A stretch of 64,000 nt of DNA. It comes from Parietichytrium sp. I65-24A (lineage: Eukaryota; Sar; Bigyra; Thraustochytrida; Thraustochytriidae). Every line of letters starts with the position of its first letter. Position 1 is the stretch's first letter. Position numbers and translations under genes: made by a program. Shown here piece after piece: positions 1,039 through 63,275 of the stretch. The stretch is taken from the NCBI GenBank assembly GCA_012862575.1, contig BLSF01000026.1:484399-548398 (forward strand), read 5' to 3'. Under the pieces are notes generated by a model. The model saw only the letters and a program-made list of their open reading frames with translations, did no database searches and had not been told where the DNA came from.

Positions 1039-4000
1039 ATGGAAGGTGTTGATGCGAAGAGTATTGTCCTCGCGGCCAAGCAGGCTTTGCAAAGCGGGCA
1101 GCTGAACTATGCGTTGCAGGTACTGGCCCAGCTTCCGGGGGACCAGAGGTCGCCGGATTACTGGGCTGCGTATGCTCAGGTGCGCATGCGCCTTCACCAT
1201 GCAACCTATTTGACCACGGTGGACGACAGCCACATCCAAGATGCACTCAAGACGGTGAGTACGGCGATTCCAAAGGCGAAAGGCAAGGTTACAGCTGAGC
1301 TGTGCGTGCTTCAATGCGCGTGCTACGAGCTGGTTGGCGACGCGAGCTCGGCAACCAGGGGGTACAACGACATCTTTTTGTACCACCCAAACATAAAGAA
1401 TATTTTGCAGGTGCGGTTCAAAGCGTGTCAGGCGTTCAAGAGGTGCGAGATGGTGGATGAAGCTATTGCCCAACTGCAGGAAGTGCTGGACGACCCAGTC
1501 CCGCCATACGATGAGCCAGACATCCTACTGCTCCTGGGCCTTTCATACGAATACAGCGGTGCGAAAGGGAGCAAGCGCATGAGCAAAGAGGCTTACAAAC
1601 AAGGATATAAACGAGCGCGGGAAACCGGCAAAGTAAAGTATGTTGAAACTGGGGAAAACTATGACTCGCCAGTGCTGGTGGATGGTCTTCCAGGTTTGGC
1701 AACCCCGCAAGCGCAGAGAGCGCAGCGTAAACACGTGGCCTTCAACGAGTGGAAAGAAGACCCCGACACATGGACAGATTTAGCAGACAAATGCTTCGAG
1801 AATGGAGACATCATATTTGCCTTGGAACTGTACACCAAGTGCCTCTGGACCGAGAGCGGCCAGTCAAACCCCGCGCTCTGGATACGATTCGCAGAGCTCA
1901 GCATGCTGTTGCGCGACTATGACTCCGCGGTGCAGGCTGTTGCGACCGTCTACAACATGCTTCCGTTCGACATGAGCATAAGATATAGACTGGGGCTCTG
2001 GGACCCAAGTAGATGGGGCGCGCACCTTGCGTTCGAAGAGCAAACCATCACTAAAGTTCAAGCCATAATTCGAGGAAACTGGGGTCGCGAGGCGGCAGCC
2101 CGACACAAAGCCATTGTGCTAGCGGAGCGGGCTCGTAGAAATGCGGCCGCAGTCGTGCTTCAGAGAACGATCGCCAGGGGGGTCCAAGGCCGTGAACGCG
2201 CAAAACAGCGACGTGCGCAGAAGGAAGCAGAATGGCTCGCCTATCAGAGGTTCCTTCTTGAGTCGAAGAGCAGCCTTATCATGCAGTGTTTCTGGCGTTG
2301 TGCGCGGTCCCGGATGCTAAGATCCAGGCTTGCGCTAGAGAGAGTAAGCGCAATTCATATCCAGTGCTTCTTCCGCCAGACTTTGGCACGGCTTCTGCTG
2401 AAGCGACTTCGGCAAGAGCACAAGGAGCGAATGGAGCGGAAAGGAGCGACTGGTTTGCAGAAGGTGTTCAGGGGCTTCGTCGACCGAAAGCGAGTGGCGG
2501 TGCTCCGTCTGCGCCACTCTTCTGCAAAACGTATCCAAACAGTGTTTCGGGCACACTGCGCTCGTGCAAGTTTTAGAATTAATATTGCCAAGTATCGGGG
2601 GGCCAAAGGGGTGCAAAAAATATTTCGCGGGTATCGGAAGAGAGTGTGGTATCAGAATCTGCGAGGTAATATGAGCATCCGCATACAAAAAGTGTACCGC
2701 AGATTTGTCTCGCGAATGAGCTATCCCGCGTTTAAGGCTTCCATGGAAAAGTACTCCCGAACCAAGTGTGGAACGAAAAACTCAAGATTCTCCAAACATT
2801 TGGAGTTTTTGTCGGCCTATGAGATTACCAACCAGGACAGCAGCACCCATGTCACTGAAGAGAAAGAGTTTTCTCCGCTGGCAAGGAATCTTCTTTCGCC
2901 CAAGGAGGCTCTGCCATCGTGCGTTGAGAGTAAGCTCTCGCAAGACGCCACAAACGCCAAGGTGTCCCAAAATCGAAAGGGATCATTGAAGGAAGAGCCT
3001 GCAAGTCCGGCTATTTTGGGGGAGGACATGTCTAGCAGACCGAAAACTGCTCCAGTGAAAGTCGATCACGAAGCGCCTCAGCGCCGGGAGGTCCCAAACC
3101 TTTGCCGTTCACCTGGCGCGATTGGAATGGCGCGTCAATCGAGCGAGCTTGGCCTAGCAGAGGTTGTGGCAAACATGCCCTCGACTATTTTGGCCTCCAA
3201 AGTCCCTCGAAGGAAAGACGCGACTGAGGTGTTATTAAAGTGGCTTGAAAAGAACGAGCGACAAGCCGCGTCTATCTGGGTTTCGAACTGGAGACTAGGT
3301 GCTAAGGGAGCGAAAAAGCTGGGCCAGGTGTTGGAGAAGAACGAATCACTTCAAGAACTTGGCCTAGGGAAAGGGTGTGCAATTGGCCCAGGCGGTGCGC
3401 ACGCGATCGCCGAGGCCATGAGATGCCACAACTTTCGCCTCACCAAAGTGTTCGTAAACGACCAAACGGAACTTGGGGACCAGGGTGCACAGCACTTTAT
3501 GCGCACGGTGGGAGATTTCTTCTTCGGTCGATACTCCAGACTCGAGGAAGTGAGCTTTCGAAACATTGGCCTCGGGGACATGTCGTGTTCTGTTCTGGTC
3601 GAAGGGCTGGCATTAAACAACAAGCTGAAGAGTTTGCAGCTGGAGAATAACAAGATCACAGACGTAGGTGCCATCGGCCTGGCCGAAAGCTTTGAGCGGA
3701 ACGAAACGTTGTTGGAGCTTGACCTAAGCGGAAACCGGATTGGATCGGAGGGAGTGGCTGCTATTGCGAGGGCGCTTCGTCGCAAAGTGCAGACGCATGC
3801 ACTGGAGATTCTCCGCCTGGACGCCAACTTGATTGGGACGCACGGCGCGATCGTTGTGCTACGATACATGCAGGCTTGCAAAAACGTTCGCCCAATGAAC
3901 CTCACGATCACGGGAAATCCGTTTCAGCCGGCGATTCACAAGCGTATCGTTGCTTTGAGCACAATCATCAAGCCATTCGGTCAGCGAGGGAACGTGATGG

Positions 4001-4254
4001 ACGTCGACTTGATCCATCACCAGCGTCAGCGCATGCTTGCGCGGAAAGAGCAAGAGCGAGACCTGGAATGCTTGTCGCCAGTGTCGCCGCTGTCCCCTGA
4101 CTGCGGCTCTGTGAGCAACCTCCTGGATTCGAGACAGCTTGATCTGCCTCCAGTGAAAATTCCTCGACGCAAGTCTCCATATCTCTCGCTTCCTTGGTCG
4201 CCGACATCCCCACAACAAAATCAAAATGGGCGTCAGCTTTTTACGTCACCTTGA
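1039..4254 (+). CDS. TPR / IQ-motif / leucine-rich-repeat scaffold protein
   Basis: A 1071-residue protein read without introns from the ATG at 1039. Residues 1-330 are helical with TPR-like pairs (alternating Ala/Leu/Tyr spacing, for example around 130-180 and 235-310). Residues 335-570 carry about seven IQ motifs (IQxxxRxxxxR types, for example IQCFFRQTLARL, IQTVFRAHCAR, IQKVYRRFVSR), expected to bind calmodulin or similar light chains. Residues 570-720 are a low-complexity Ser/Lys/Pro linker. Residues 725-975 are ribonuclease-inhibitor-type LRRs with LxLxxNxIxxxGxxxLA spacing (LQLENNKITDVGA, LDLSGNRIGSEGV). The tail has repeated SP sites. Each domain is a protein-binding module, so the likely role is a calcium-responsive scaffold, perhaps cytoskeletal or ciliary; that role is inference. 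I see no catalytic domain, signal peptide or membrane segment. Confidence 0.85.
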   Translation: MEGVDAKSIVLAAKQALQSGQLNYALQVLAQLPGDQRSPDYWAAYAQVRMRLHHATYLTTVDDSHIQDALKTVSTAIPKAKGKVTAELCVLQCACYELVGDASSATRGYNDIFLYHPNIKNILQVRFKACQAFKRCEMVDEAIAQLQEVLDDPVPPYDEPDILLLLGLSYEYSGAKGSKRMSKEAYKQGYKRARETGKVKYVETGENYDSPVLVDGLPGLATPQAQRAQRKHVAFNEWKEDPDTWTDLADKCFENGDIIFALELYTKCLWTESGQSNPALWIRFAELSMLLRDYDSAVQAVATVYNMLPFDMSIRYRLGLWDPSRWGAHLAFEEQTITKVQAIIRGNWGREAAARHKAIVLAERARRNAAAVVLQRTIARGVQGRERAKQRRAQKEAEWLAYQRFLLESKSSLIMQCFWRCARSRMLRSRLALERVSAIHIQCFFRQTLARLLLKRLRQEHKERMERKGATGLQKVFRGFVDRKRVAVLRLRHSSAKRIQTVFRAHCARASFRINIAKYRGAKGVQKIFRGYRKRVWYQNLRGNMSIRIQKVYRRFVSRMSYPAFKASMEKYSRTKCGTKNSRFSKHLEFLSAYEITNQDSSTHVTEEKEFSPLARNLLSPKEALPSCVESKLSQDATNAKVSQNRKGSLKEEPASPAILGEDMSSRPKTAPVKVDHEAPQRREVPNLCRSPGAIGMARQSSELGLAEVVANMPSTILASKVPRRKDATEVLLKWLEKNERQAASIWVSNWRLGAKGAKKLGQVLEKNESLQELGLGKGCAIGPGGAHAIAEAMRCHNFRLTKVFVNDQTELGDQGAQHFMRTVGDFFFGRYSRLEEVSFRNIGLGDMSCSVLVEGLALNNKLKSLQLENNKITDVGAIGLAESFERNETLLELDLSGNRIGSEGVAAIARALRRKVQTHALEILRLDANLIGTHGAIVVLRYMQACKNVRPMNLTITGNPFQPAIHKRIVALSTIIKPFGQRGNVMDVDLIHHQRQRMLARKEQERDLECLSPVSPLSPDCGSVSNLLDSRQLDLPPVKIPRRKSPYLSLPWSPTSPQQNQNGRQLFTSP

Positions 4255-6396: not shown

Positions 6397-6891
6397 GAAC
6401 CAAGGCAGGAAAGGCTAACTTATTGCAGGAAATGCACATTGCACATTGCATGGACGACAGCAGCCGCTGCTCTCTCTATCTATCTGTGATCTGTGATAAA
6501 ACTTACAAACATTACAAGCTGCGGCTGCGGCTGCGAGTATGATACTATCTATGATACTGCCGGCGAGTTAGTTCGTTGCCTGAGATGGTTGAGACTGACT
6601 GTGAGTACGTGCATAGTGAAAATAGTGAATGTGAGTGAGGAAGAGAGGAGCGAGAGAGGTCTTGCAGATAATGCAAGTACAAAGTTGACGTGCAAATTCC
6701 CAACGCTCAGGGCTTGCCGACCGCAGTGGAAAGAGGAGAGCGAAGAGCTGTGAGCTGTGAGCTGTGGCACAAAGCTGTAGTATCGAAATCCAACGTGACG
6801 GACGGTCGGTTGCGCAGCGCAATAGAGATAGCGGGGACCGCTTGCAAACGCTTTCGTGCGAGGGTGGAAGCGACCGTTGACGGTGGCCGAG

Positions 6892-8376
6892 ATGGAGAAC
6901 GGGAACAACTTGAAGAGGAGCTGGGACTCTCTCAACTACAATGACCAGCTGCAAAGCCACACTGTGAAAGCGAAGGCCGCGGTGAAGCTCGCCAGCAAAG
7001 TGGGCGAGCTGCTCTTCGAAAAGGGGATCGAGCTCGTGCTCAACAGGCAGAAGCTCGTGGACGCTCCTACCAGCCAGATCTTGAAGCTGCACGAGTACTC
7101 TTCGCAAGTTTGGAAGACGGAGATTAGCGTGTTTACGACGAGCACGCTCGCCGAGGCGATGTGCGAGATCGACATCGCTCCAGCAAAGATCGACATCGCT
7201 AGGTTGGCCAAGGAGTTTACCGAGAGAGAGGATGAGAGCGTGACCGCGAAGGAGTTTCTGGTCAAGCAGCTCGAATCTTTCAAGAAAGACAAGCAACAAA
7301 CTTTCGAGCCAAGTGACGTGGTCCTCTACGGCTTTGGAAGAATTGGCCGCTTGGCTGCTCGGATGCTTATCCTCGCTGCTGGTAAAGGCCTCCAGCTGCG
7401 CCTCCGCGCGATCGTGGTGCGCGACAAGGAGCTATCCGACATCAAGAAGCGTGCATCATTGTTCCAAAATGACTCTGTGCACGGGCAATTCCGCGGCCAA
7501 GTCGAGGTGGACGTCGAATCCCAGACCCTCTGCCTGAACGGACAGGTCGTCAAGGTGATATCTGCAAAGGATCCAGAGGAGATTGACTACACTGCTCACG
7601 GAATCAAGAACGCCCTCGTCATCGACAACACCGGGGTTTTCCGCGACAAGGAAAAGCTTAGCAAGCACCTCAAGTCCAAGGGAGTCTCGAGGGTGCTCCT
7701 CACTGCGCCAGGCTCCAAAGTGCCAAACATCGTGTACGGAATCAATCACAACGATCTCGACTTGGAGAATGATACAATTGTAGCTGCTGCCAGCTGCACA
7801 ACTAACGCCATTGCGCCAATTCTCACCGTTGTGCAAAACAAGTACGGCATTCGCAAGGGGCATATCGAGACTGTGCACTCCTACACGAATGACCAAAACC
7901 TCTTGGACAACTTCCATAAGAAGGCCCGCCGAGGTCGTGCAGCAGGTGTGAACATGGTGATCACCGAAACCGGGGCGGCTGGGGCAATTCCAAAAATCAT
8001 ACCGACCCTCAAGGACAAGCTGACTGGCAATGCCGTGAGGGTTCCAACACCAAACGCAAGTCTTGCAATCTTGCAGCTAGACCTCGAAAAGGGGGTCGCC
8101 TCCAAAGAGGAGATTAACGATGCAATCCGTCTGGCATCTATCACTGGTCCTTTGGTCAGCCAAATCCACTACAGCATCGACGATGAGCTTGTGTCAACGG
8201 ACGTCGTTGGAAGCTCTGCGCCAAGCTTCTTCGACAGCTACGCAACGATTGTTGCCAAGGACAATCAGAGCGTTGTCTTGTACACATTTTACGACAACGA
8301 GTATGGGTACACCAAGCAAGTCATTCGCTTGGCAAAGCACATGATGAAGGTTCGCCGCGCAGTTTACTACTTTTAA
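6892..8376 (+). CDS. GAPDH: Glyceraldehyde-3-phosphate dehydrogenase, long bacterial-type form
   Basis: A 494-residue protein from the ATG at 6892. Residues about 1-135 form an alpha-helical N-terminal extension absent from ordinary 330-340-residue GAPDH. The core follows: NAD-binding GFGRIGR at about 144, the catalytic motif ASCTTN with Cys302, and C-terminal DNEYGY. It should convert glyceraldehyde-3-phosphate, phosphate and NAD(P)+ to 1,3-bisphosphoglycerate in glycolysis or gluconeogenesis. The N-terminal extension is the hallmark of the long GAPDH family known mainly from Bacteroidetes and gammaproteobacteria, not of the common eukaryotic GapC or plastid GapA/B, so bacterial ancestry is likely (inference). 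I see no obvious targeting peptide, so a cytosolic location is the simplest reading. No intron is needed. An in-frame GTG at 6856 exists but the first ATG gives the family-like start. Confidence 0.93.
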   Translation: MENGNNLKRSWDSLNYNDQLQSHTVKAKAAVKLASKVGELLFEKGIELVLNRQKLVDAPTSQILKLHEYSSQVWKTEISVFTTSTLAEAMCEIDIAPAKIDIARLAKEFTEREDESVTAKEFLVKQLESFKKDKQQTFEPSDVVLYGFGRIGRLAARMLILAAGKGLQLRLRAIVVRDKELSDIKKRASLFQNDSVHGQFRGQVEVDVESQTLCLNGQVVKVISAKDPEEIDYTAHGIKNALVIDNTGVFRDKEKLSKHLKSKGVSRVLLTAPGSKVPNIVYGINHNDLDLENDTIVAAASCTTNAIAPILTVVQNKYGIRKGHIETVHSYTNDQNLLDNFHKKARRGRAAGVNMVITETGAAGAIPKIIPTLKDKLTGNAVRVPTPNASLAILQLDLEKGVASKEEINDAIRLASITGPLVSQIHYSIDDELVSTDVVGSSAPSFFDSYATIVAKDNQSVVLYTFYDNEYGYTKQVIRLAKHMMKVRRAVYYF

Positions 8377-48036: not shown

Positions 48037-50898
48037 TCAAACCTTGCGGTTGCGAGGCTTTTTGGTGTTGGTCTTGACAACCATTCTACTTCTGGCGAAT
48101 CTAGACTTGAGAGCCTCTCCCTTCGCCTTAGGCTTGTATTTCTCCCTGGAAAGTTCTCCTCCAGTCTTGCGCTTCTCCTCCTTAGGGGCTCCTCTGCCGT
48201 TCTTACCCCGCTGTTCGTGCGGAGTGCGAGCATTCTTTGCCTTCCTCTTCTCCTTCTCCTTGATCTCTTTGCGAATCTTATGGACGTCCTTGATCTCATC
48301 GCGCGCTTTTGCGTTTGCAACTTTGTACTCACGGTGCTTCTTTGCGAATGCTTTGACGTTCATCATGGAGCTCTCTGCGCGTTGCCTCTTCCTTGGGCGA
48401 TCAGCATCTTCCTCGTCACTAGACTCCTGTCCTCCTTGTGCCGCGATACGCTTCTTTGTCACCTTTTGCCACTTGTCGTAAATCTCTCCACGGTTCTTCA
48501 CATTGATCTTCGTACCACTTTCACTCTTCATGCGCTTGGACTTGAGATGCTCCTCTAATGTAGCTTTCACATACCGTTTCTTGCGTTTGTCCCAATGGAA
48601 AGACCTCTGCCGTGAGGCCAAATCATTTGAATCGTCGGGGGTAAGATCCAACAGCGCCTCCTCCAGGCGCGCAGAATGAGATAAATTTCCACTGTCATCT
48701 CCCTTCTTGTCATTGATCGCCAGCTGTGTGCTCGCTTCGTGATCATACCCTTGCGGCACCGCATTTACGTAAACGGAGAAGTCTCTGTAATCCTTGGTAC
48801 CCATCTCGCCGCCTCCCTCCTCGCGGGGGCGGCTTTCTGCCTCCTCGTTGCCTTTGCTAAGCTCCCGTGCTCGCGTATTGGACGTAGACGGGACATTGCC
48901 TCCGTTGGACGCCGACGGAGACACACCGGCTTTCCTTAGTTTTTTACGCTCTGCCTTGGAAAGCCTACGCTTTGATGACCTCGCTTCGTCGTCTGAAGCG
49001 TCGGAATCAGCGTCCTCACCCGCAGCGCGAGCGCCCGAAAACTCCATGCCTCCTGGGGCCAAAGGATTGGCCTCAGCTTTGCCCTTCAAGAGCTGTTGGG
49101 CTGAGTCCGAAATGCTCAACTTCTCAGGAGTATCCTCCTCTTCCTGGCCTGCAGCTTCCTTGTTTCGTTTGATTTCGGCCACCCTCTTTCTCTCTTTACT
49201 AATAATTTCCTGGTGCGCAACGCGCTTGTTTTGCATTGCAATGACGCTCTCGCCGATGGCCTTGCCTTTCTTCATGGTCTCCATCTCAAAAACTGTCAAG
49301 TTTGGCCGAAACGATCGCAGGACATTCAAATGGTCATCCATAATTTGCAGCTCCTCGCCGTGCTCTGCTACAAAGAGAGGGTGAATGAGGGGTCGAGGAC
49401 CCAATTCCTTGGAGCGCTTTACGGAGCGGCGGGACGCTTCCTGGCGGGTCTTTGTATACATCACGTGCGCATTTTTCACCACAGAGGCTAGTTTGGCAAG
49501 CTCCGCAGCGGAATCTACAACGCTATCCAAACGCTCCATCTCTGCGTCAAGCACATGTTGTGGAAATCTGCCGACGTCGATATCATCTGGTGTCATGTCT
49601 GCCAGCTTGTAAGAGCGTTTCTCGGTGACACCATTCTCATTTTCGAATCCTCGGATTGGGCGGCCAAGAAAAAGATGAAGATCCACCATGTAGGGCATTT
49701 CGTCTTGAGTCACAAAAGAATATGCTGTTCCGCTACGGCCTTGACGAGCTGCACGACCTACTCTGTGAATGAAGAGTTTAGATTTGCTCGGAAACTCAAA
49801 ATTTATCACATTGTTCAGAAGTGGAATATCGATACCTCGAGCAGCGACGTCCGTCACCAACAGCACCTTGTTTTTGCCTGTCCTGAAATTATCCAAATTG
49901 GACCTGCGGGCTTCCATGTCCATGCTCCCGTACGCAACGCTGGAGGAGATGCCGCAACACCGACTCAGCAACTCTTTAATATAGTCAACGTGGTGCCGCG
50001 TTGCGGTGAATATAATTGTGAGGTCGTCTTTGGGGATCACTTCTGTCAACAAATGAACGAGCGCCGCCATCTTTTCCTTTGAAGGAACCACGAAAAAGGC
50101 CAACTTCAGATTCTCGCTGATTTTCGTCTCCGTATCTAGCCTCACGAGCTCTGGGTCCGACAGCCCCGCACGAGCAAACTCCATAAGCTGAGCAGGCATC
50201 GTCGCACTGAAAAGCAAGGTCTGACGCTGGTCTGGCAGCTGGTCCAGGATGTCTTTGAGCTGAAGTGCAAATCCCATCTCGAATAACCTGTCAGCCTCAT
50301 CCACAATGAGCATCTCCACACGCTTGAGCCCAAAGTCTGGCACCTCCACGAGCAAGTGGACGAGACGTCCAGGCGTGGCAACCACAATGTCCGGGTTATT
50401 CGCAAGTGCCTCGAACTGGGCCTCCATTTTATCACCTCCTTGAAGCAAACAAATGCGAAGCGAGGTAAATTTCCCCATTTGTTTGGCGAATTTATACGTT
50501 TGTTGCGCAAGCTCGCGTGTGGGACTCAGAACCAGACCACGTGCGCCAATCGTTGCAGAATGCGCTTGTAGCTTTTCCAGCAGCGGGATCAAGAACGCGG
50601 CCGTCTTTCCGGACCCTGTCCTCGCCATCGCGACAATATCCTTCCCAGACAAGCTCACGGGAAGCGTTTTCCTCTGAATCGGCGTCGGCATCTTGTACCC
50701 CATCCTCATGATCCCCGAGAACACCACTTTGCTCAGCTCAAACGATTGAAATCCGCCGCCCTTCTTCTTCTTCTTGCCGCCATCAGCCTTGCCTTTGTCG
50801 CCTCTGTCGGCCTCCTCGTCGCTGCCGAAACCTGGCACCACATCGTCCTCTCTATCATCCCCAAAGCTCACCGTTCCTTCCAAAAACGACTCTTCCAT
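48037..50898 (-). CDS. DBP10: DEAD-box ATP-dependent RNA helicase, DBP10/DDX54 type
   Basis: A 953-residue protein from the ATG at 50896-50898, without introns. The helicase core has all motifs in order: Q-motif PTPIQRKT, motif I ARTGSGKT, Ia PTRELA, Ib TPGR, II DEAD, III SAT, IV IIFTATRHHVDY, V TDVAARGID and VI HRVGRAAR. The region near residues 760-850 (EIYDKWQKVTKKR) matches the DBP10 C-terminal domain, and the tail is Lys/Arg-rich with many nuclear-localisation-like stretches. DBP10/DDX54 acts in the nucleolus in assembly of the large ribosomal subunit. Acidic patches near the start (DDREDD, GSDEEADRGD) fit. Upstream frame to 50958 lacks an ATG and is repeat-coded. Confidence 0.93.
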   Translation of the reverse strand: MEESFLEGTVSFGDDREDDVVPGFGSDEEADRGDKGKADGGKKKKKGGGFQSFELSKVVFSGIMRMGYKMPTPIQRKTLPVSLSGKDIVAMARTGSGKTAAFLIPLLEKLQAHSATIGARGLVLSPTRELAQQTYKFAKQMGKFTSLRICLLQGGDKMEAQFEALANNPDIVVATPGRLVHLLVEVPDFGLKRVEMLIVDEADRLFEMGFALQLKDILDQLPDQRQTLLFSATMPAQLMEFARAGLSDPELVRLDTETKISENLKLAFFVVPSKEKMAALVHLLTEVIPKDDLTIIFTATRHHVDYIKELLSRCCGISSSVAYGSMDMEARRSNLDNFRTGKNKVLLVTDVAARGIDIPLLNNVINFEFPSKSKLFIHRVGRAARQGRSGTAYSFVTQDEMPYMVDLHLFLGRPIRGFENENGVTEKRSYKLADMTPDDIDVGRFPQHVLDAEMERLDSVVDSAAELAKLASVVKNAHVMYTKTRQEASRRSVKRSKELGPRPLIHPLFVAEHGEELQIMDDHLNVLRSFRPNLTVFEMETMKKGKAIGESVIAMQNKRVAHQEIISKERKRVAEIKRNKEAAGQEEEDTPEKLSISDSAQQLLKGKAEANPLAPGGMEFSGARAAGEDADSDASDDEARSSKRRLSKAERKKLRKAGVSPSASNGGNVPSTSNTRARELSKGNEEAESRPREEGGGEMGTKDYRDFSVYVNAVPQGYDHEASTQLAINDKKGDDSGNLSHSARLEEALLDLTPDDSNDLASRQRSFHWDKRKKRYVKATLEEHLKSKRMKSESGTKINVKNRGEIYDKWQKVTKKRIAAQGGQESSDEEDADRPRKRQRAESSMMNVKAFAKKHREYKVANAKARDEIKDVHKIRKEIKEKEKRKAKNARTPHEQRGKNGRGAPKEEKRKTGGELSREKYKPKAKGEALKSRFARSRMVVKTNTKKPRNRKV

Positions 50899-52210
50899 CT
50901 TGCAACTCTGCAACTTTGCAACTCTGCAACTCTGCAAGAAAGACGCGCGCTTGCCCACCGTCCCACCGTCCAGAAAGAGAAGTGAAAAGATAGTCTATCA
51001 GGCAGTCCCTTGCGAAACTTTTCAATATTTTTGCAACTGGAAAAAAATATGCACAACGCACAACGCACGATGCACAACCTGAAGAACCAGACCGAGCCGC
51101 GCGGTTCTGCTTGCGAGAACCCGTCGCCTCTCCCGCTCCCCGCTGCTGCCTCCCGTCGCCTTTCGTTGCGCACTGCACGTTGCCAACTGCGTCCACGTTC
51201 ATCTCGTGTGCCAGAGAAAAGGGTTCCGCGGAAGAACGTCGAGTATTTGTACATATGAAGATACGCTCCAGATGGTATTACAATAGTTTCATTTACTCTC
51301 ATGTGCAACTAGTAGTACCTCATTATAATATATCGTAATATGGATAGCGTAGATGTTCCCTGGAGAGGCCTATAAGGGGCCGCTGATAGAGGTGGTGGTT
51401 AGCAGAATTCCAAAAAGCTGTACGCACTTGCAACGGATCATAATCGACGAGTCCGGTAGGAATTGAAGCATGCCGTTATCGTTAATTGAAATTCATAAAA
51501 TAGAAAATGCATGTCATCGGAACCGGTGTTTCCGAACGGATACATGGGCATTCCAATTTACAATTTTTTGGCATTCCTTTGACATGCGCTGAGAGCTGTC
51601 TTCACGTTCACGCTGGATCTGGCCACGTGAATTGGGACATGTTTTGAGTTATTGTTATCATCAGAGACATTTCGATCGAAGAGGCTTACCTTGGATTCGA
51701 AATGGCTGCGTCGAAAAACATGGAAACTCGCCAAGGAGAGTCAATTGACCTGAAAAAAGAGTTGTTACTCATTCATTCATTCATCCATGCATGAAATTAA
51801 CTCCGTTCCGATGACTCATCGCTGCTAGTGTAAAGCAATTATTAAGCGATCGCCGCGGCGGCCCGAGTTAACAAAAATCCTTCATCAAGTCTCTAAACTC
51901 GATAAATGAACCCCGAGTCTCCCAAAGTAAACAATGTTAACAACGAAAACACAAAAGCTCGAGCGCGGCGGGACATTTCGTATACCTTGGATAAAAAGAA
52001 TTAGGGCACACTGGGGTTGGACACACGCACGGCGCGAGCTGCCAGCACAAACTTAGTTGTAAGGCTCTCCCAGTCTTCAAAGTTTGAGAGCGATCGATTA
52101 TCCAAGCTCGCTTCAGTGCTGTGCTGTGCTGCGTGCGCGACAAGCAGACAAGCAGCCAAGAGCAGATCGCGCGAGCGCCAATCAGTGAGCAGAGCGATTA
52201 GGGTACGACG
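50899..52210. other. Divergent intergenic region between DBP10 (-) and myosin (+)
   Basis: About 1.3 kb. A TGCAACTC octamer repeat (50901-50937) abuts the DBP10 start codon. The remainder is AT-rich, with a possible TATA-like stretch near 51325-51335 (TATAATATAT). No gene seen. Confidence 0.5.
50901..50937. repeat. TGCAACTC octamer repeat next to DBP10 start
   Basis: About four and a half copies of TGCAACTY, beginning three bases upstream of the DBP10 ATG on the minus strand, so it is most likely part of the 5' untranslated leader. Confidence 0.85.
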
Positions 52211-55200
52211 ATGAGTCAGGCGAAGATGAGGGCAACACGACAAAATTCGAGCAAAGCCCGCGAGACGTGCTTCGTGGGCTCCAAGGTATGGGTTGCGATT
52301 CCCGACGACGCGCGGCTCTTTGAGCTTGGAGAGGTAGTTCACATCAGCGGTGACAATGAGTACACCGTCGAAACGGAAGGCGGTGAACACGTTGCGGTTG
52401 GACCAGAAGCAATCAAGGTGACGCACGAAACTGGAGGCCGCAGCGTGGAAGACCTCCTCAATCTGAGCGACTTTAGCGAAGAGAGTTTGGTGCACTCGTT
52501 GCGTGAAAGATATGCGCGGGACGAGTTTTACAGTATGGTTGGCCCCATTCTGATCTCCATCAATCCGTACAAATGGTGCGATATTTACAGCACGGAGCGA
52601 ATGAGCGAATTTCGCGGCAAGCGCTCCTCCAGCCAACCGCACGTCTTTTCCATAGCCGAGAACGCATACCGCGCTATTGTGGAAGATGCCGAGAAGATGA
52701 GCCAGGCGATCATCATCAGCGGGGAGTCCGGCGCGGGGAAAACGGAGGCCACAAAGATTATAATGAAGTACTTGTCCACAGCTGGCCGCCAACAGAGACA
52801 CGAGCAAAGCGACGAGCCGACGTCTCCGACGTCTCCGAAGTCTCCGAAGAGCCCAGCCAAGCGTGGCTTGGAGCAACGAGTGTTGGACTCCAATCCTTTG
52901 CTTGAGGCGTTCGGGAACGCAAAGACTGTCCGAAATGACAACTCGTCTCGCTTTGGGAAATTCATAGAGATTCAGATAGATCAGACTGGCCTCATCATGG
53001 GCGCGAAGGTGATCAACTACTTGCTTGAAAAGTCTCGTATCATTCGCCAGTCGGAAGGGGAGCGAAATTACCACATTTTTTACCAGCTCTTGCGCGGGGC
53101 GGACAGTAGTTTGCTGGAGCAAATTGGACTTGGAGATATTATTGAGCATGACTTTGTCTACGTGCAAACAGGGTCTTGCTTGTCGCTCTTTGAGGAAAAC
53201 GATGTATCCAATTTCAAGCGTACTCTTGAATGCCTGGCTTCCATCGGTGTTAATAACGGTGAGAGGCTAGACTTGTTTCGCGCGCTCGCTGGTGTTCTTT
53301 TGCTCGGAAATATCGAGTTTGAAGAAATGGAAAATATCGACGGGTGCACGGCGAGAGATGACTTTCTTTCTCGCGCCGCGAAGACGCTTGGCCTGCCAAA
53401 GGAGGAGTTAAGTGGCGCACTCTGCAACCATCTCGTTCAAGTTGGCTCAGAGTCCATCCGCAAGCCCATTCTCCCATCCGTCGCCATGGACAAGCGCGAT
53501 GCTCTCTCCAAGGCACTTTATGCCCTTGTGTTTCGTTGGCTTGTTGCACGGATTAATTCGAGTTTAGCTGGGCATGCGTCCACTGCACTTAATGCCATCG
53601 GATCAAAACCGCGAAGGTCGGATGATGAGGGTTCCCAATTTATCGGAATTCTTGACATCTACGGATTCGAGGTTTTCGAGGAGAATTCCTTCGAACAATT
53701 TTGCATCAACTTTGCTAACGAAAAGCTGCAGAGGCACTTCAACAAGTACATTTTCGAGGTGGAACAGGTCGAGTACGAGAAAGAAGGCATTGATTGGTCT
53801 CGCATTGAGTTCAATGACAACCAGCCTTGCTTGGAGTTGATTGACAACTCGCAAACGTCGGTGTTGTGCCTTTTGGATGAAGAGTGCATCATGCCCAAGG
53901 GCTCTGACACGAGCTTCCTGCGCAAGCTTCACAGTATGCACAAGGACAGGCACGCAAATTATGTCACCAGTCGCTTTGGTGGGGAGGCCGTCTTTGGCAT
54001 CAAGCACTACGCCGGCATCGTCGAGTACAGTGTGGATGGTTTCATCTCCAAGAATAATGACTCCCTGAGCGAGGAGCTGGCTGGTCTCATGCAGCGCTCC
54101 CAGTACGCTTGGGTGAGGGATCTGTTCCCGACACTACCAACTCCTAGCGCAACCAAGTCCCGCAAACGCGGCTCGTCGCTGCGCGCCCCTACGGTTTCGC
54201 AGCAGTTTCGCAAGCAGCTCGAGAGTTTGACGCAAAAGCTTGAAAGCTGCAAACCCAACTTTATTCGTTGTGTAAAGCCGAACGAATTCAAAGTCGCAGG
54301 ATTTTTTGACACACTCAAGTGTCTGAATCAGCTACGCTACGCTGGGATGATGGAGACAGTGCGAATTAGGGACGCGGGTTACGCTCTTCGCGAGAAGCAT
54401 GATTCGTTCTATCGGCGCTTCAAGATCCTCTCCCCAGACGCCTCCACTTGCGCTGAGCTGGTACAGCACATTGCCGCGCAGTTTGACCTGCAAGACTCTT
54501 CGTTGTGGCAAATCGGGCACACCAAAGTTTTCTTGAAACGCAGTCTTTCGGACCTTTTGGACCGATGTGCGGGCATTCGCTTGACAGCAGCCTCCAGAAC
54601 AATCGCTAAAACGTTTCGGCAAACGATTTTGCGCAAGCGCAAAGACGCCATCGCCAAGATTGAGGCATTCTATGAGCGAGTCAAGTTTGTCATGTTGTTG
54701 CGAAAAGTTCTCCAGATCCAGTGCTCGGTCCGGATGCGGCTGGCGCGAATCCGCGCAGCTCGCTGTCGAAAAGCTGCAGTCGGAAAGCCAGCTGTGGACA
54801 CGAGCTTGTATGAGGTCCCGGATCTCAACAAGCTTCTGAAGGATGCCAAGGCCAAAGAGGCTCAGCCCAAGCCACTCCGTGAAAAATCTCGCCCGGCCAA
54901 AATTGTTGTTGTCAATCCGCCAGCTGCAGCTTTGACCCCGCCAGCAGCAAGCCAGGCTGATGTAGCAGAATTTGATCAGACGAAGCAGGAGCTCGAAGCG
55001 TCGCTCAGACGCGAGCAAGAGTTTAGGGCCAAAACGCAGGCTTTGGAGATTAAAGCTACCGATTGGGAGCAAAAGAGCACTGTGTACAGCGAGCAAGTCG
55101 AGATTTTGAAGCACAAGCTTGAAGAGTACTCTAGGCGCGAGTCAGTCCTCATTTCTCGCATGGGCGACTTTGAGAGTTTTGTGGAGACGTTTTGGAACGA

Positions 55201-56095
55201 GGACACGGCTCAGGCGCACGATGAGGAGGAGTCCTCTCTTTCAAAGCCGCAGCACTCTGATGAGGCTCTCGACAGAATGATCAAAACAGTTAAAGCCGGG
55301 GTCAAGCAAATGCAGAATCGGTACGCGGTGCAAAAGCAGACTCTCCAGTCTCAAACGGAGATGCCGGCTAGTGCACAGAGTGCAGTCTCCGACGAACTCA
55401 AGGCTCTGCTGTTGCAACAAAGTGAGCTGATGATGCGCAAAATTGATGCTGAACGGCTTGATCGCGAGGAAGGAAAGAGTAAAATTTCTCAGCTTGAGGA
55501 AGTGAGTGCTCGACAGCGCAACGAGATTGAGAGACTTGAGAAGGAGCTTGCGAGTGCCAAGAACATGGCCAGCAAGTTGGAAACCGAAATCCGCCACGAA
55601 AAGTCTGACGCCATGAGCCGCATCGCGATGATGGAAAAGGAGATGCAACTGGGACTTTCTGAACGTCAACGACTTGAGTTAGCTTTGGAAGAATCACTGG
55701 AGGCACAAAGGCGCTCTGAGCTTGAGGCGAAGCAGGCAAATGCCTCTGTGGATATCAGCGTCTCCAACTTGATGAGAGAAAATGTAGCCCTTTTAGACGA
55801 AGTGCTGGACACTCGAACGAAGTATCAAGCCTTGGTTCGTAAGGCTTCCAAGCTGGAGTCCCGCGCAAAACAGGCTGAGGCGGCAAACGAAACACTGGTT
55901 ACCCTTTTGAGCTGGAGAGATAATCAGCTTTCAGTTTTGGTGGAAGGCAAGTCTGGAATCTCGAAACAGCAGGCGCAGCAGCTCAGGGGAGGACTTGAAG
56001 GAGACAAAATTGAATCTCAAATAGACGCGCTCAAGCCATACTTTGAGAGGATTACCAGCACTACCGAGTCGAAACTCGATGATGACTTGTACTAG
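52211..56095 (+). CDS. Myosin heavy chain with coiled-coil tail
   Basis: A 1294-residue myosin without introns. Residues 20-70 are an SH3-like N-terminal domain (GSKVWVAIPDD, GEVVHI). The motor spans about 85-770: P-loop GESGAGKT (171-178), switch I NDNSSRFGKF (242-251), switch II LDIYGFE (481-487), the actin-binding and converter region KPNFIRCVKPN and CLNQLRYAGMMETVRIRDAGY. Loop 1 (about 195-220) is enlarged by repeated SPT/SPK triplets that could be phosphorylated. One good IQ motif lies near 837 (IQCSVRMRLARIRA) after a degenerate one. Residues about 920-1280 contain long heptad stretches, so it is likely a dimer. There is no clear globular cargo domain. The architecture resembles class V, VIII or XI motors, but I cannot place the class. 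It should move cargo or organise actin. Confidence 0.92.
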   Translation: MSQAKMRATRQNSSKARETCFVGSKVWVAIPDDARLFELGEVVHISGDNEYTVETEGGEHVAVGPEAIKVTHETGGRSVEDLLNLSDFSEESLVHSLRERYARDEFYSMVGPILISINPYKWCDIYSTERMSEFRGKRSSSQPHVFSIAENAYRAIVEDAEKMSQAIIISGESGAGKTEATKIIMKYLSTAGRQQRHEQSDEPTSPTSPKSPKSPAKRGLEQRVLDSNPLLEAFGNAKTVRNDNSSRFGKFIEIQIDQTGLIMGAKVINYLLEKSRIIRQSEGERNYHIFYQLLRGADSSLLEQIGLGDIIEHDFVYVQTGSCLSLFEENDVSNFKRTLECLASIGVNNGERLDLFRALAGVLLLGNIEFEEMENIDGCTARDDFLSRAAKTLGLPKEELSGALCNHLVQVGSESIRKPILPSVAMDKRDALSKALYALVFRWLVARINSSLAGHASTALNAIGSKPRRSDDEGSQFIGILDIYGFEVFEENSFEQFCINFANEKLQRHFNKYIFEVEQVEYEKEGIDWSRIEFNDNQPCLELIDNSQTSVLCLLDEECIMPKGSDTSFLRKLHSMHKDRHANYVTSRFGGEAVFGIKHYAGIVEYSVDGFISKNNDSLSEELAGLMQRSQYAWVRDLFPTLPTPSATKSRKRGSSLRAPTVSQQFRKQLESLTQKLESCKPNFIRCVKPNEFKVAGFFDTLKCLNQLRYAGMMETVRIRDAGYALREKHDSFYRRFKILSPDASTCAELVQHIAAQFDLQDSSLWQIGHTKVFLKRSLSDLLDRCAGIRLTAASRTIAKTFRQTILRKRKDAIAKIEAFYERVKFVMLLRKVLQIQCSVRMRLARIRAARCRKAAVGKPAVDTSLYEVPDLNKLLKDAKAKEAQPKPLREKSRPAKIVVVNPPAAALTPPAASQADVAEFDQTKQELEASLRREQEFRAKTQALEIKATDWEQKSTVYSEQVEILKHKLEEYSRRESVLISRMGDFESFVETFWNEDTAQAHDEEESSLSKPQHSDEALDRMIKTVKAGVKQMQNRYAVQKQTLQSQTEMPASAQSAVSDELKALLLQQSELMMRKIDAERLDREEGKSKISQLEEVSARQRNEIERLEKELASAKNMASKLETEIRHEKSDAMSRIAMMEKEMQLGLSERQRLELALEESLEAQRRSELEAKQANASVDISVSNLMRENVALLDEVLDTRTKYQALVRKASKLESRAKQAEAANETLVTLLSWRDNQLSVLVEGKSGISKQQAQQLRGGLEGDKIESQIDALKPYFERITSTTESKLDDDLY

Positions 56096-59815: not shown

Positions 59816-60451
59816 TTATCTCTTCTGTGTGCAGCTGCCATCTGGCAGCCAAGGTGGCTCTATGCGCAGCTCGCAAAAGCTGTGTGTTGCTGAGATCGTG
59901 CTGTGCATTTGAGAGCGGCATGCCAGTAAATTTACACCGGAAATACTCGAGTGTGAATATAGCACATTCGGTTGTTTAGGAACAGTCTCCCCAGGGACAG
60001 TGAAGTTCGCGTTGATAGTGGGGAGCCAATGCGGGAGACGTGCCTCAATTGCAATGGCAGACCTAACGGTGGTTTGGACGTTCTCAGATGGGTCTATAAG
60101 TTCGACCCGTGCATCTGGAAAAGGTGTGGAGTCAAATTCAACGAGAAGGAAGTGGTTCTGCAGACATACCGGCGCAAGGACACGTCTTCTTTGCCGCAGC
60201 ATCTCGATGAAGTCAAGGGGGAAGAGAGCATTGGCGAGGAAAAGGTGAACGGGGTTTGGAGGCACCCTATAGCCCTGTCTTTGTCCGTCGGGAATTTGCT
60301 CGAGCTTTGATGCTGACGAGGGGTCGCGCAGGAGGCAAAGCGGCGTTAGTTTTATTCCTCTTTCGCGTTGGTGAAGGGTGGAGGTAGGCTTTGTTCTTGC
60401 ACGAGACCTGCGACATGGTCCTGGCTGGCAGAGTAGCAGGAGATAATCCAC
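59816..60451 (-). CDS. Hypothetical protein, possibly a downstream exon of the Pro-rich gene
   Basis: An open minus-strand frame of up to 211 codons. The part below about 60320 is protein-like (LDFIEMLRQRRRVLAPVCLQ, EFDSTPFPDARVELIDPSE, TTVRSAIAIEARLPHWLPT). A plausible acceptor CGTCAG with an upstream CTAAC element lies near 60320-60345, so this may be an exon. The same frame continues upstream through one TGA into the end of the Pro-rich region. I cannot choose between one interrupted gene and two units. Both plus-strand frames are open too but look worse. No family recognised. Confidence 0.4.
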   Translation of the reverse strand: MDYLLLLCQPGPCRRSRARTKPTSTLHQRERGIKLTPLCLLRDPSSASKLEQIPDGQRQGYRVPPNPVHLFLANALFPLDFIEMLRQRRRVLAPVCLQNHFLLVEFDSTPFPDARVELIDPSENVQTTVRSAIAIEARLPHWLPTINANFTVPGETVPKQPNVLYSHSSISGVNLLACRSQMHSTISATHSFCELRIEPPWLPDGSCTQKR

Positions 60452-60474
60452 AGTTCACGCCTGGATGCGCAGGT

Positions 60475-61210
60475 CTAGTACGAGCTTGTCGCCTCTATCC
60501 AAGCGCATGGTCGCGCCCTGTACGCCCATGTCGGTAGCACCGGAGACAGTGACGTATTCGTGTGCGCAGACGGCTTGTCGGGGGTGTGTGATAAGAGAGG
60601 AGTCACTGCAGGTGGAGGTGGTGGTGGTGCTGCCGCCAGAGTCGTAGTCTCCGGGGCCGCTGCAGAGGGAAGTGGTGGAGGTGGTGCTGCTGCTGCCGCC
60701 ACAGTCGTAGGCTCAGACGGCTTGTCGGGGGTGTGCGGTAGAGGAGAAGTCACTGCAGGTGGAGGAGGTTGTGGCGGTGTTGCTGCCGCCACGCTCGTAG
60801 GCTCTGGGGTCTGTGGCCCGTCAACAGTGTCCTCGAGCTGGGTTGTTCGCTGACCCTGTACGTCATCTCCTGAATTGGAAGAATGCTCGCCCAAGTCTAG
60901 TGGATGGGGGAACTGCATGGGCGGCGCTATATCAGCGACTGTCTGCTCGGGAAGGTCCTGAACATTTTCTTCGCTGTGAGTACTTGATGAATTGTCTTTC
61001 AAGGACTTTGCCAATTCTTGAATTGCGTGGTCGATTGGGTTCTTCATTGCTTCGGTCATGCGTCTTTCCAAGTCATGAAGTTTTTTGTCCTCAAGTTCCT
61101 GGACCTCTTTTGGTGTCTTTCTTCTTTTGGGTGGGCTTGGATCCGAAAGCACAATTTCGTCTTTCGCATCGTCACCGCGTTTCGCCGGCCCGGCCTTGAG
61201 TATTTTGGTT
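60475..61210 (-). CDS. Pro/Ala-rich repeat protein, start unresolved
   Basis: Open from just after a TAA near 61211. There is no ATG near the start: the first residues (ILKAGPAKRGDDAKDEIVL) would need an upstream exon, and a TACTAAAC branch-like element with CTCAAG acceptor lies right there. Residues then form a charged coiled stretch (EVQELEDKKLHDLERRM) and a Pro/Ala/Thr-rich region with a 49-residue tandem repeat (HTPDKPS... AAAPPPPPPAVT). Near the end another frame reads GVQGATMRLDRGDKLVLDL, more protein-like than the open frame's WAYRARPCAW, which suggests a frameshift or an unseen intron. Not recognised. Confidence 0.45.
60569..60800. repeat. 147-bp tandem repeat in the Pro-rich gene
   Basis: The element beginning GACGGCTTGTCGGGGGTGTG occurs at 60569 and again at 60716, a spacing of 147 bp (49 codons), with good similarity over the following 80 bp. 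Confidence 0.75.
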
Positions 61211-61240
61211 TAGTACTTTGCCTTGCAGTCCTTCTTACAG

Positions 61241-61729
61241 AATGTAACTTCTCCTGGGTTTCTTCGCAACGGAGATGAACGTTCCAATCATGTGGAAATT
61301 CCCAGGTCTGAGGACAAACTTGTTTTTGACTTATTTATTGCGACAATCGCGTCCCCAAAGGCCGCTCAGCATTTTAGCACCAATAAGCCGATTACCATGC
61401 AACAGATTCAAGGCTACAAGGTGGGTGCGATGCAGAATAAATGGGTACAAAGGCTAGACCACAACATTTTTCTTTCTGAGCAAGCCGACAAACTCGCGAA
61501 GGCCCACTCGAAACAGGTTGACATAGAGAGGAACGGTATCGAAGACGATGCTGATGCCAACTTGGAAGACAATTGCATTGACGAGGGCATCGACTTTTAC
61601 AACAAATTCCAACAGGAGCGAGACTTGGGGAACAGGAAGCCACACAGAAACGCAAAGCGCCCAACAAGAGCAAGGTCTCCAACAAAACCAAGAGAGCACG
61701 AGCAAAAACATGCAAAAACGACACAATGA
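61241..61729 (+). CDS. Hypothetical protein exon
   Basis: Protein-like plus-strand frame that opens after a CTTACAG acceptor-like site at 61234-61240 and ends at TGA 61727-61729. It reads KLVFDLFIATIASPKAAQHF, later QRLDHNIFLSEQADKLAKAH, an acidic stretch and a basic Arg/Lys/Pro-rich tail. There is no ATG near the start, so it is an exon of a longer gene or a fragment. It lies head-to-head with the Pro-rich minus-strand frame and within 5 bases of the first LRR exon, whose in-frame ATG overlaps this stop. Whether it is part of the same LRR gene is unknown. No family recognised. Confidence 0.4.
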   Translation, partial: NVTSPGFLRNGDERSNHVEIPRSEDKLVFDLFIATIASPKAAQHFSTNKPITMQQIQGYKVGAMQNKWVQRLDHNIFLSEQADKLAKAHSKQVDIERNGIEDDADANLEDNCIDEGIDFYNKFQQERDLGNRKPHRNAKRPTRARSPTKPREHEQKHAKTTQ

Positions 61730-62690
61730 TTCAGGGGACTAGCTCCTTGTTCTCTGGGATTCCTTGTTCTCTGGAAAATAGAATTGGTGCCGAAGGAGCA
61801 TCAGCGATCGGTCGCGCGTTGGAGAAGAACACTGCGCTGACTACATTGAAGTACGTGTGACTTTGACAGCAGTTTGGTGAGAGCGATGAGTCTCTTGCTG
61901 AACTTTCTCGGACTTGGCTGACGATTTTGTCTTTTTGTAATGAAATAGTATTCAAGACGATGACATTGGCGATGAAGGAGCATCAGCAATCGGTCGCGCG
62001 TTGGAGAAGAACACTGCGTTGACTGAGTTGGAGTACGTGTGCTTTTGACACTGGTTTGGTGAAAATGATTAGTCTCTTTCTGAACTTTCTCGGGCTTGGT
62101 GGCTGACGACTTGATGTCTTTTTGTAATGAAATAGTCTTCGAAGGAATAGAATTGGCGATGAAGGAGCATCAGCGATCGGTCGCGCGTTGGAAAAGAACA
62201 CTGTGCTGAGTACATTGTAGTACGTGTGACTTTGACAGCAGTTTGGTGAAAAAGATTAGCCTTTTTGTTGAACTTTCTCGGATTTGGTGGCTGACGATTT
62301 CATGTCTTTTTGAATGAATCGGATCCGACCAACTCGCTCAATTTAACCCATCTTACAGTCTTGCGGGCAACTATATACGAGCGGTCAGCAGAGCTGCGAT
62401 CTACGCCAAAATCGAGGAAAACAGGATGGCCGCGCGTGCAGACTCCAGAGACACTCTTTGATGTAGAAAAGTCCCTGACGGCAGCGATCGAGAATGCTGG
62501 CTTGCAGACTTGAGGACGCGCCAAGCTACTGTTCGTTGGCGAGGGACGTGTAGAGAAGACTTCCTTCCACCCTCAGATCCCTGTTGGGAATGTCGCCAGA
62601 TTTCACACCGAGTATCAACGGCGTCGCTTCGAAAGTGGCCAACACTGCAGAACTAGCGCGAGCAAGAAATCGGCGAAACTAGCTTTAATC
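61726..62690 (+). pseudogene. Decayed LRR / P-loop NTPase gene with tandem LRR exons
   Basis: Exons 61726-61850, 61949-62032, 62136-62219 and 62359-62461 splice cleanly (GTACGT...TAG/CAG, all phase 2) into 28-residue LRRs of ribonuclease-inhibitor type (NRIGDEGASAIGRALEKN). Junction codons restore Asn, Asp and Tyr exactly at the LxxLxLxxN position. After the fourth exon the reading shifts frame (ETLFDVEKSLTAAIENAGLQ), meets a TGA at 62511, and continues in frame as AKLLFVGEGRVEKTSF, a Walker A motif whose second glycine is Glu. The next part, LLGMSPDFTPSINGV, is in yet another frame. The order LRRs then P-loop matches Roco-like or STAND-type LRR proteins of protists. The first exon lacks an acceptor where the others have one, so the 5' end is truncated. 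Confidence 0.65.
61767..62358 (+). repeat. Tandem exon-plus-intron repeats of an LRR module
   Basis: Three units of 182, 187 and about 223 bp (61767-61948, 61949-62135, 62136-62358), each an 84-bp LRR exon followed by a related intron. Introns 1 and 2 (98 and 103 bp) share GTACGTGTG and TGTCTTTTTGTAATGAAATAG. Intron 3 is alike up to the CTTTTTGAATGA position, then has lost that acceptor and uses a new CTTACAG 139 bp from its donor. Confidence 0.85.
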
Positions 62691-62727
62691 GTCAAGTTCA
62701 AAACCTAACCTAAAAAAGAAGAGTATC

Positions 62728-63275
62728 TATGACCTGTCCGTGCTTCTACAACCGAAATACAAAATCATCAACGAGATCCTTACGGTGCAGGGGCCGTCCT
62801 GCAAGAAGGCCATCGTGAACGTTGCCGCGTGCTCTGCCGTGCTGCAAACAGCAAATGTTTCAACATGCGGGCAACTTTACCGGCTTGAGGGAAAGTGCAG
62901 GCAAGCAGGCGCAATACATTTCATTAGCTCTTACTCCGCAGCTGGCATACAGAATTGAGCCGCCAAATAAACTCTCCCGCAGCCGCAGACAGGACTCCAA
63001 AGCCCTCGGAGAAGGGCTGAAGTATAGGGCAGTAGCACTTGCTCCTTTGGAATACGAGGCACTGCAACACTTGGTCCTGTGCCAAACGCAAAACACCAGC
63101 GCCGGTAAAGGCTTTGAAGCCAGAGCCAGAATGCTTGGAAACACAACAACAGCCCGCCATCGTCTTCAAAGTAGCAAAGCTCGACGTCAAACTACGTCCC
63201 TTGGCTGGAGCGCAGGCTGTACGCGCCCCCGTTGTTTCAGCCTCATTGTGCGGAACAAAGGCTTCGGAATAATGA
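62728..63275 (+). pseudogene. Possible decayed gene in three frames
   Basis: Protein-like reading passes through three frames: 62728-62880 (IYDLSVLLQPKYKIINEILT), 62885-63080 (YISLALTPQLAYRIEPPNKL, LKYRAVALAPLEYEALQHLV) and 63085-63272 (QQQPAIVFKVAKLDVKLRPL). No splice sites explain the frame changes well. It follows directly after the LRR/P-loop relic and may be its downstream part or a separate dead gene. Family not recognised. Confidence 0.35.

Follow-up and report, generated by a model that had tools for sequence, protein, structure and literature searches.

Expandable arrays of 84-bp leucine-rich repeat exons in Parietichytrium: a truncated copy and a family of candidate recognition receptors

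Close to the end of contig C26 of Parietichytrium, a few short exons encoding leucine-rich repeats (LRRs) alternate with introns that resemble one another, which raises the question of whether exons and introns were amplified together, recently and at this site, as the original prediction held, and of what kind of gene such a module would belong to. The window, i.e., the whole stretch of DNA analysed here, comprises the final 64 kb of this contig, in a genome of 42.5 Mb and 172 contigs. The original description of most genes in the window as intronless agrees with its long single-exon frames and with the other LRR genes, which lie in long open frames, and the single-frame ORF of 1071 amino acids at 1039–4254 (forward strand), with LRR_6 and IQ motifs, is an intronless LRR gene that contrasts with the exon arrays. 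One open frame also holds a myosin of 1294 amino acids (52211–56095, forward strand) and another a DBP10-like DEAD-box helicase (48037–50958, reverse strand), and a GAPDH frame of 506 amino acids (6856–8376, forward strand) is extended at its N terminus by approximately 150 residues ahead of the NAD-binding domain.

The mini-array, with all its features on the forward strand, can be described by a four-exon model (61726–62461) that is open for 131 residues once the predicted splicing is applied; read unspliced, 61768–62219 contains six in-frame stops. The putative first exon (61726–61850) starts with an ATG at 61726 and contains the first LRR unit, in register, at 61767–61850; upstream, this unit is joined to unrelated DNA, and there is no AG directly before 61767, so that exon 1 is without an acceptor. 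Intron 1 (61851–61948, 98 bp), exon 2 (61949–62032), intron 2 (62033–62135, 103 bp) and exon 3 (62136–62219) follow, both introns being GT-AG. As had been described, exons 2 and 3 have exactly 84 bp and encode one 28-residue LRR each, of the ribonuclease-inhibitor (RI) type, their flanking introns would be in phase 2, and in the window model the predicted splice junctions all fall in one codon of the LRR repeat. Predicted intron 3 (62220–62358) matches the array introns in its 5′ part (approximately 93 bp) and is similar, in its 3′ part, to the ends of the arrays L035, L038, L040 and L050, while the predicted terminal exon (62359–62461; LAGNYIR...DSRDTL, then stop) is capping-repeat-like and has similar short termini as counterparts in L038 and L040. 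The spliced product of the mini-array matches Pfam LRR_6 with 63.5 bits. A 56-bp stretch just upstream of the array (61643–61698) has a counterpart of 91% identity ahead of the L046 array and matches less well in L033 and L040, and is thus a repeat found near several arrays.

The window introns had been called nearly identical. With gaps counted, intron 1 is 83.5% identical to intron 2, and intron 3 is 76.0% identical to either, values lowered by its trimming to the homologous 93 bases; in ungapped columns the values are 88% (introns 1 and 2), 86% (2 and 3) and 91% (1 and 3). Homology is well supported, since these identities lie far above those of 500 base shuffles (means of 0.516 and 0.513, maximum of 0.596), but near-identity is not what we observe. 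Among 182 introns, the window introns rank 18th to 85th for each other in ungapped columns and 17th to 126th with gaps counted, and the intron closest to all three (gaps counted) is one from L040. Of their 84 bases, 18 distinguish exon 2 from exon 3, and each of the two exons ranks only 116th or 132nd of 195 for the other, the exons closest to them being on other contigs, with 8 differences. Since the exons and introns of the window are closer to those of other contigs, the window does not directly demonstrate a recent unequal duplication at this site, as it was thought to do.

In the genome as a whole, where the original prediction had proposed to look for them, further arrays were indeed found: a two-unit probe from the window gave 271 matches, and intron 2 alone gave 158, the best besides itself being 90% identical. 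We counted 36 clusters on 29 contigs among the matches listed, and 27 of the 36 were analysed, as 20 fetched loci and seven shorter loci (stretches of 1.9–3.3 kb), leaving out C58, C59, C75, C87, the two on C125, C140, C146 and C155. In these 27 clusters, 197 of 220 complete exons have 84 bp, with a fixed length and one repeat per exon, and predicted phase-2 introns on both sides. The phase-2 frame is open in 196 of the 197, against 8 and 1 for the other two frames, and the splice dinucleotides of the 220 exons are AG/GT in 206 cases and AG/GC in seven. The 183 array introns have a median of 102 bp (range 69–181) and their lengths are not restricted to multiples of three. The exons form 39 runs of 1 to 19 exons, 33 of them with two or more; of these 33, 25 are open when spliced and none when unspliced. 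Splicing gives an open frame for the run of 18 exons in L047 but not for that of 19 exons in L036, and the eight broken runs may represent pseudogenes, sequencing errors or gap effects. We infer from these frames that the arrays are spliced at the predicted phase-2 sites.

The repeat, with the consensus LTxLxLxxNxIGDEGASAIGRALEKNTA, is of the 28–29-residue RI type: the L046 array matches Pfam LRR_6 with an E value of 1.8e-53, and a match to the sequence of ribonuclease inhibitor in the PDB (1dfj, E value of 1.1e-29) points to RI/NLRP-type LRRs. In protein databases, consulted for signs of a transcript, a spliced 18-repeat query had a best-scoring match of 49% identity and none above 54% among the best 120 of 193, and no protein was recognized as coming from this organism.

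It is at the level of this family that recent unequal duplication of an exon-intron module finds support. Adjacent 186-bp units of L035 (5292/5478) are identical, those of L049 (4802/4989) are 97% identical, and collinear duplicated blocks are present in L036 (five exons), L040 (a repeated block) and L047 (last units identical), the 5′ module described below being present twice on the L047 contig. The nearest relative lies within the same locus for 85 of 196 exons, against 5% expected. Mean divergence within loci nevertheless equals that between loci, so that recent growth from a single local unit does not account for every array, and the pattern fits local duplication over an old, genome-wide mixing. 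At least 15 of the 36 clusters (a raw count) lie 10 kb or less from a contig end, and on C5, C45, C91 and C169 no more than approximately 0.2 kb separates an array from the end of the contig; array copy numbers and some of the fresh duplicates may therefore be artefacts of a collapsed or chimeric assembly. Several contigs stop inside arrays, so that assembly breaks account for at least part of these end positions, and no telomere repeat was recognized by eye in the last 150 bases of nine contig ends, which speaks against a telomeric explanation of these positions. The 5′ module itself lies less than 0.5 kb from the start of C4, C19, C22, C41, C53, C54, C58 and C110, suggesting that the assembly breaks at these genes and that their copies are probably undercounted.

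Fuller members of the family have parts on both sides of the array. A 5′ module, for which a probe from L008 representing one subgroup gave 34 DNA matches in the genome, was aligned in seven loci, and a second, related subgroup was found in the flanks of other loci. By eye, the module comprises approximately 38 residues plus a modified LRR, and in loci with either type of tail its first exon resembles MGxYxx...FWxVxSLxEGLxAIDxGxxAVW. Two types of long tails were distinguished in seven translated loci. Type A consists of a protein kinase and a cysteine-rich end, with Pkinase above the Pfam cut-offs in L031, L034 and L043 and identified by alignment in L049, where part of the sequence reads N. 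Type B consists of Roc, COR-A and TIR_2, above the Pfam cut-offs in L039 and by alignment in L032 and L045. The cysteine pattern of the type-A end was seen by eye, and a RING/RBR identity was considered and set aside, as no RING or IBR Pfam domain was obtained at E≤1 in L043 and L031; the PDB search gave no support for such a name. The L043 tail has 14 database matches, covering 7–26% of it, which we read as probably the kinase domain only, and the L039 tail has 64 database relatives, 25 of them named as belonging to Hondaea fermentalgiana, a thraustochytrid, at 30–44% identity, which fits a labyrinthulomycete; the best match, 51% identical, is not among these 25.

Compared with these genes, the window copy is a 5′-truncated mini-array, a remnant or mini-gene, which has three LRR units only, has lost the usual start and ends in relics of both tail types. 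No match to the 5′ module was obtained on C26 with the DNA probe of one subgroup, nor was there a match to the N-terminal peptide, and of the upstream region 60001–61766 only 56–63 bp recur, in three other loci among those fetched. Downstream, an alignment identified a type-B tail relic reaching the start of the ROC domain (62325–62649), interrupted by a single TGA and by a frame change, whose part before approximately 62462 overlaps the predicted terminal exon in another frame; 75 bases further, a second relic (62725–62841) corresponds to the cysteine-rich part of type A, with 64–67% over 39 aligned positions. The same fused flank occurs at L040 (83% over 787 bp), a locus that still has the 5′ module, and part of it at L038 (90% over 356 bp). 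It seems, then, that an old recombination joined both tail types and that, as L040 and L038 carry this flank, its product was copied to several loci. That the window copy is a non-coding pseudogene scrap, left when an LRR gene of the ROCO type recombined with one of the kinase type, is a reading we somewhat favour for this particular copy, given the missing 5′ module, peptide match and acceptor, the adjacent relics with their stop and frame change, and the flank shared with L040; the four predicted exons, open throughout once spliced, and the similar short terminus of L038 and L040, consistent with a retained LRR-only form, argue against it. The pseudogene reading is compatible with the explanation that we prefer for the family as a whole, in which the arrays belong to candidate recognition receptors.

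The variation among repeats, 186 of 196 of which are distinct, is concentrated in few codons. Amino-acid entropy is highest at codons 3, 2, 5 and 26 (3.83, 3.64, 3.37 and 2.52 bits, respectively), followed by codon 8 with 2.14 bits, and the junction codon is likewise variable. Codons 2, 3, 5 and 26, hereafter HV codons (with the junction bases added in distance counts), are presumably the exposed positions on the concave strand in LRR proteins. Over 10965 pairs of 149 units, HV positions differ by approximately 63%, introns by 24%, fourfold sites by 17–18% and the remaining codons, at their first and second positions, by approximately 12%. In 39 independent close pairs (≤8 differences), HV codons have 61 nonsynonymous and 8 synonymous changes, against 54 and 44 for the other codons (Fisher p of 3e-6), and the nonsynonymous excess has a p of 1e-9 at ≤12 differences. 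It is not significant in the closest pairs (≤4 or ≤6 differences, p of 0.42 each), and at ≤6 differences the HV synonymous rate is raised (0.319 versus 0.086 per opportunity, p of 0.014), not significantly so at the thresholds 4, 8 and 12 (p of 0.08, 0.27 and 0.18). Diversifying selection on the HV codons is likely, as judged from these substitution patterns, and, owing to the raised synonymous rate at 6 and the non-significant closest pairs, a mutational or conversion share may be present in the variation.

That targeted mutation or short-tract gene conversion, rather than selection alone, underlies the diversity of the exposed codons is in our view unlikely. Such processes would agree with HV codons near saturation between conserved flanking codons, with the higher synonymous rate in pairs with ≤6 differences, and with the sharing of codons 2, 3 and 5 by nine of 18067 between-locus pairs, against a mean of 1.8 and a maximum of 6 in 200 shuffles. 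Against them, the synonymous rate is not significantly raised at ≤8 or ≤12 differences, segment sharing is rare and every HV position shows all four bases. Shuffling of HV segments between loci was also considered as the main source of variety, and nine of 18067 pairs make it a weak candidate. That a 187-bp satellite or introner-like element is spreading itself, with LRR coding incidental, is highly improbable, for although introns and exons recur jointly in many places, coding constraint is evident by frame and by site, conserved codons differ between loci at 11.5% of first and second positions versus 23.6% for introns, the intron-profile matches adjoin an LRR unit in 248 of 248 cases (in the 27 loci, chosen for their arrays), and the intron matches listed lie, by eye, on array contigs or beside a 5′ module or ROC relic. 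An array intron in unrelated genes, sought as the sign of an introner element, was not found among the matches listed, inspected by eye, nor in the 27 loci.

We consider it probable, therefore, that the window holds a truncated member of a large family of candidate recognition receptor genes in this thraustochytrid, with expandable arrays, whose repeats would be gained and lost by recombination between units. In its fuller members, a short 5′ module is followed by up to 18 or 19 predicted 84-bp exons, each of them coding for a single LRR of the RI type and accompanied by an intron of approximately 102 bp in phase 2, and, in the long-tailed genes, by a tail with a protein kinase and cysteine-rich end or with ROC-COR-TIR. 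Because the exon length is divisible by three and both ends are in phase 2, and because units resemble one another in exon core as well as intron, misaligned recombination could start almost anywhere in the unit of approximately 187 bp and whole LRRs would be gained or lost in frame. The in-frame growth of the module by tandem duplication that was originally predicted appears borne out for the family, the most variable residues being those expected to face a ligand. Selection would then diversify the exposed residues of the strand (LTxLxLxxNx), and the family may serve as a germline repertoire of recognition receptors that signal through their tails. The sequence itself shows the structure of the arrays, the duplicated units and blocks, the variation at particular sites and the tails; that recombination is the agent, and that the proteins recognize and signal, we infer from this arrangement. 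More tentatively, and with less confidence than doubt, the family may be an NLR-like repertoire of a unicellular stramenopile. Related 5′ modules and an expandable array would then be combined with exchangeable kinase or ROC-COR-TIR tails, the binding face would diversify at individual codons against a background, including the introns, that changes little, and the skipping of exons without loss of frame could yield still more products.

Tandem LRR exons of fixed length have been described in other organisms. In Tetrahymena, according to the accessible part of the report, LRR genes have tandem 90-bp exons with an upstream phase-2 intron in more than 98%, repeat units alike at the nucleotide level, a variable exon number from which ectopic recombination was inferred, an association with a non-LTR element and purifying selection overall, and the authors were aware of no other organism with such arrays (PMC6564038); the terms positive selection, hypervariable and diversifying are absent from its main text. 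As far as that account goes, Parietichytrium is similar in its fixed-length tandem LRR exons, phase-2 introns, variable number and nucleotide-level repeats; it differs in the exon length of 84 instead of 90 bp (one of 220 exons has 90 bp), which places it outside the 90-bp family, in its RI-type 28-residue LRR and its ROC-COR-TIR and kinase tails, and in having dozens of clusters where Tetrahymena has thousands of genes. The LRR-ROCO genes of brown algae, in the portion of the source available, have 72-bp phase-2 exons of one 23-residue LRR each (PMC11378527; Zambounis, 2012, as cited there), four positively selected sites on the concave face and alternative splicing of LRR exons (PMC11378527). 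On the same partial basis, both have exons of a single LRR, phase 2 and concave-face variation, and in some of the genes only a ROC-COR part, which in Parietichytrium lies 3′ of the LRR array (in L039 by Pfam; in L032 and L045 by alignment), whereas exons of 84 instead of 72 bp with a 28-residue LRR lie outside the 72-bp family, and TIR after COR and the presence of the same arrays on kinase tails are differences of Parietichytrium. Human NLRP genes also have RI-type LRRs from modular exons, and the part of the source available makes no mention of arrays in which 84-bp single-repeat exons alternate with homologous introns (PMC6642158). The thraustochytrid proteins P0029 and P0036 of Hondaea fermentalgiana likewise have 28-residue LRRs before ROC-COR-TIR, at only 30–31% identity to the L039 tail. 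We found no published account of an 84-bp LRR exon family in a search that ran mostly outside the subscription literature, and the one thraustochytrid paper found to mention leucine-rich repeats only counts them in its accessible part (PMC8917795). As the fixed lengths of the Tetrahymena and brown algal families are not those observed here, we class the arrays as what looks like a separate version of a known arrangement, with another unit length, another LRR class, and kinase and TIR tails.

A third exon type, of 84 bp, with another LRR class and in what appears to be a separate lineage, would point to repeated origins of this arrangement as a means of changing a binding surface in frame. Since each exon stands beside a homologous intron, the family would also allow selection, mutation and conversion to be separated at the scale of single codons, in a single-celled organism.
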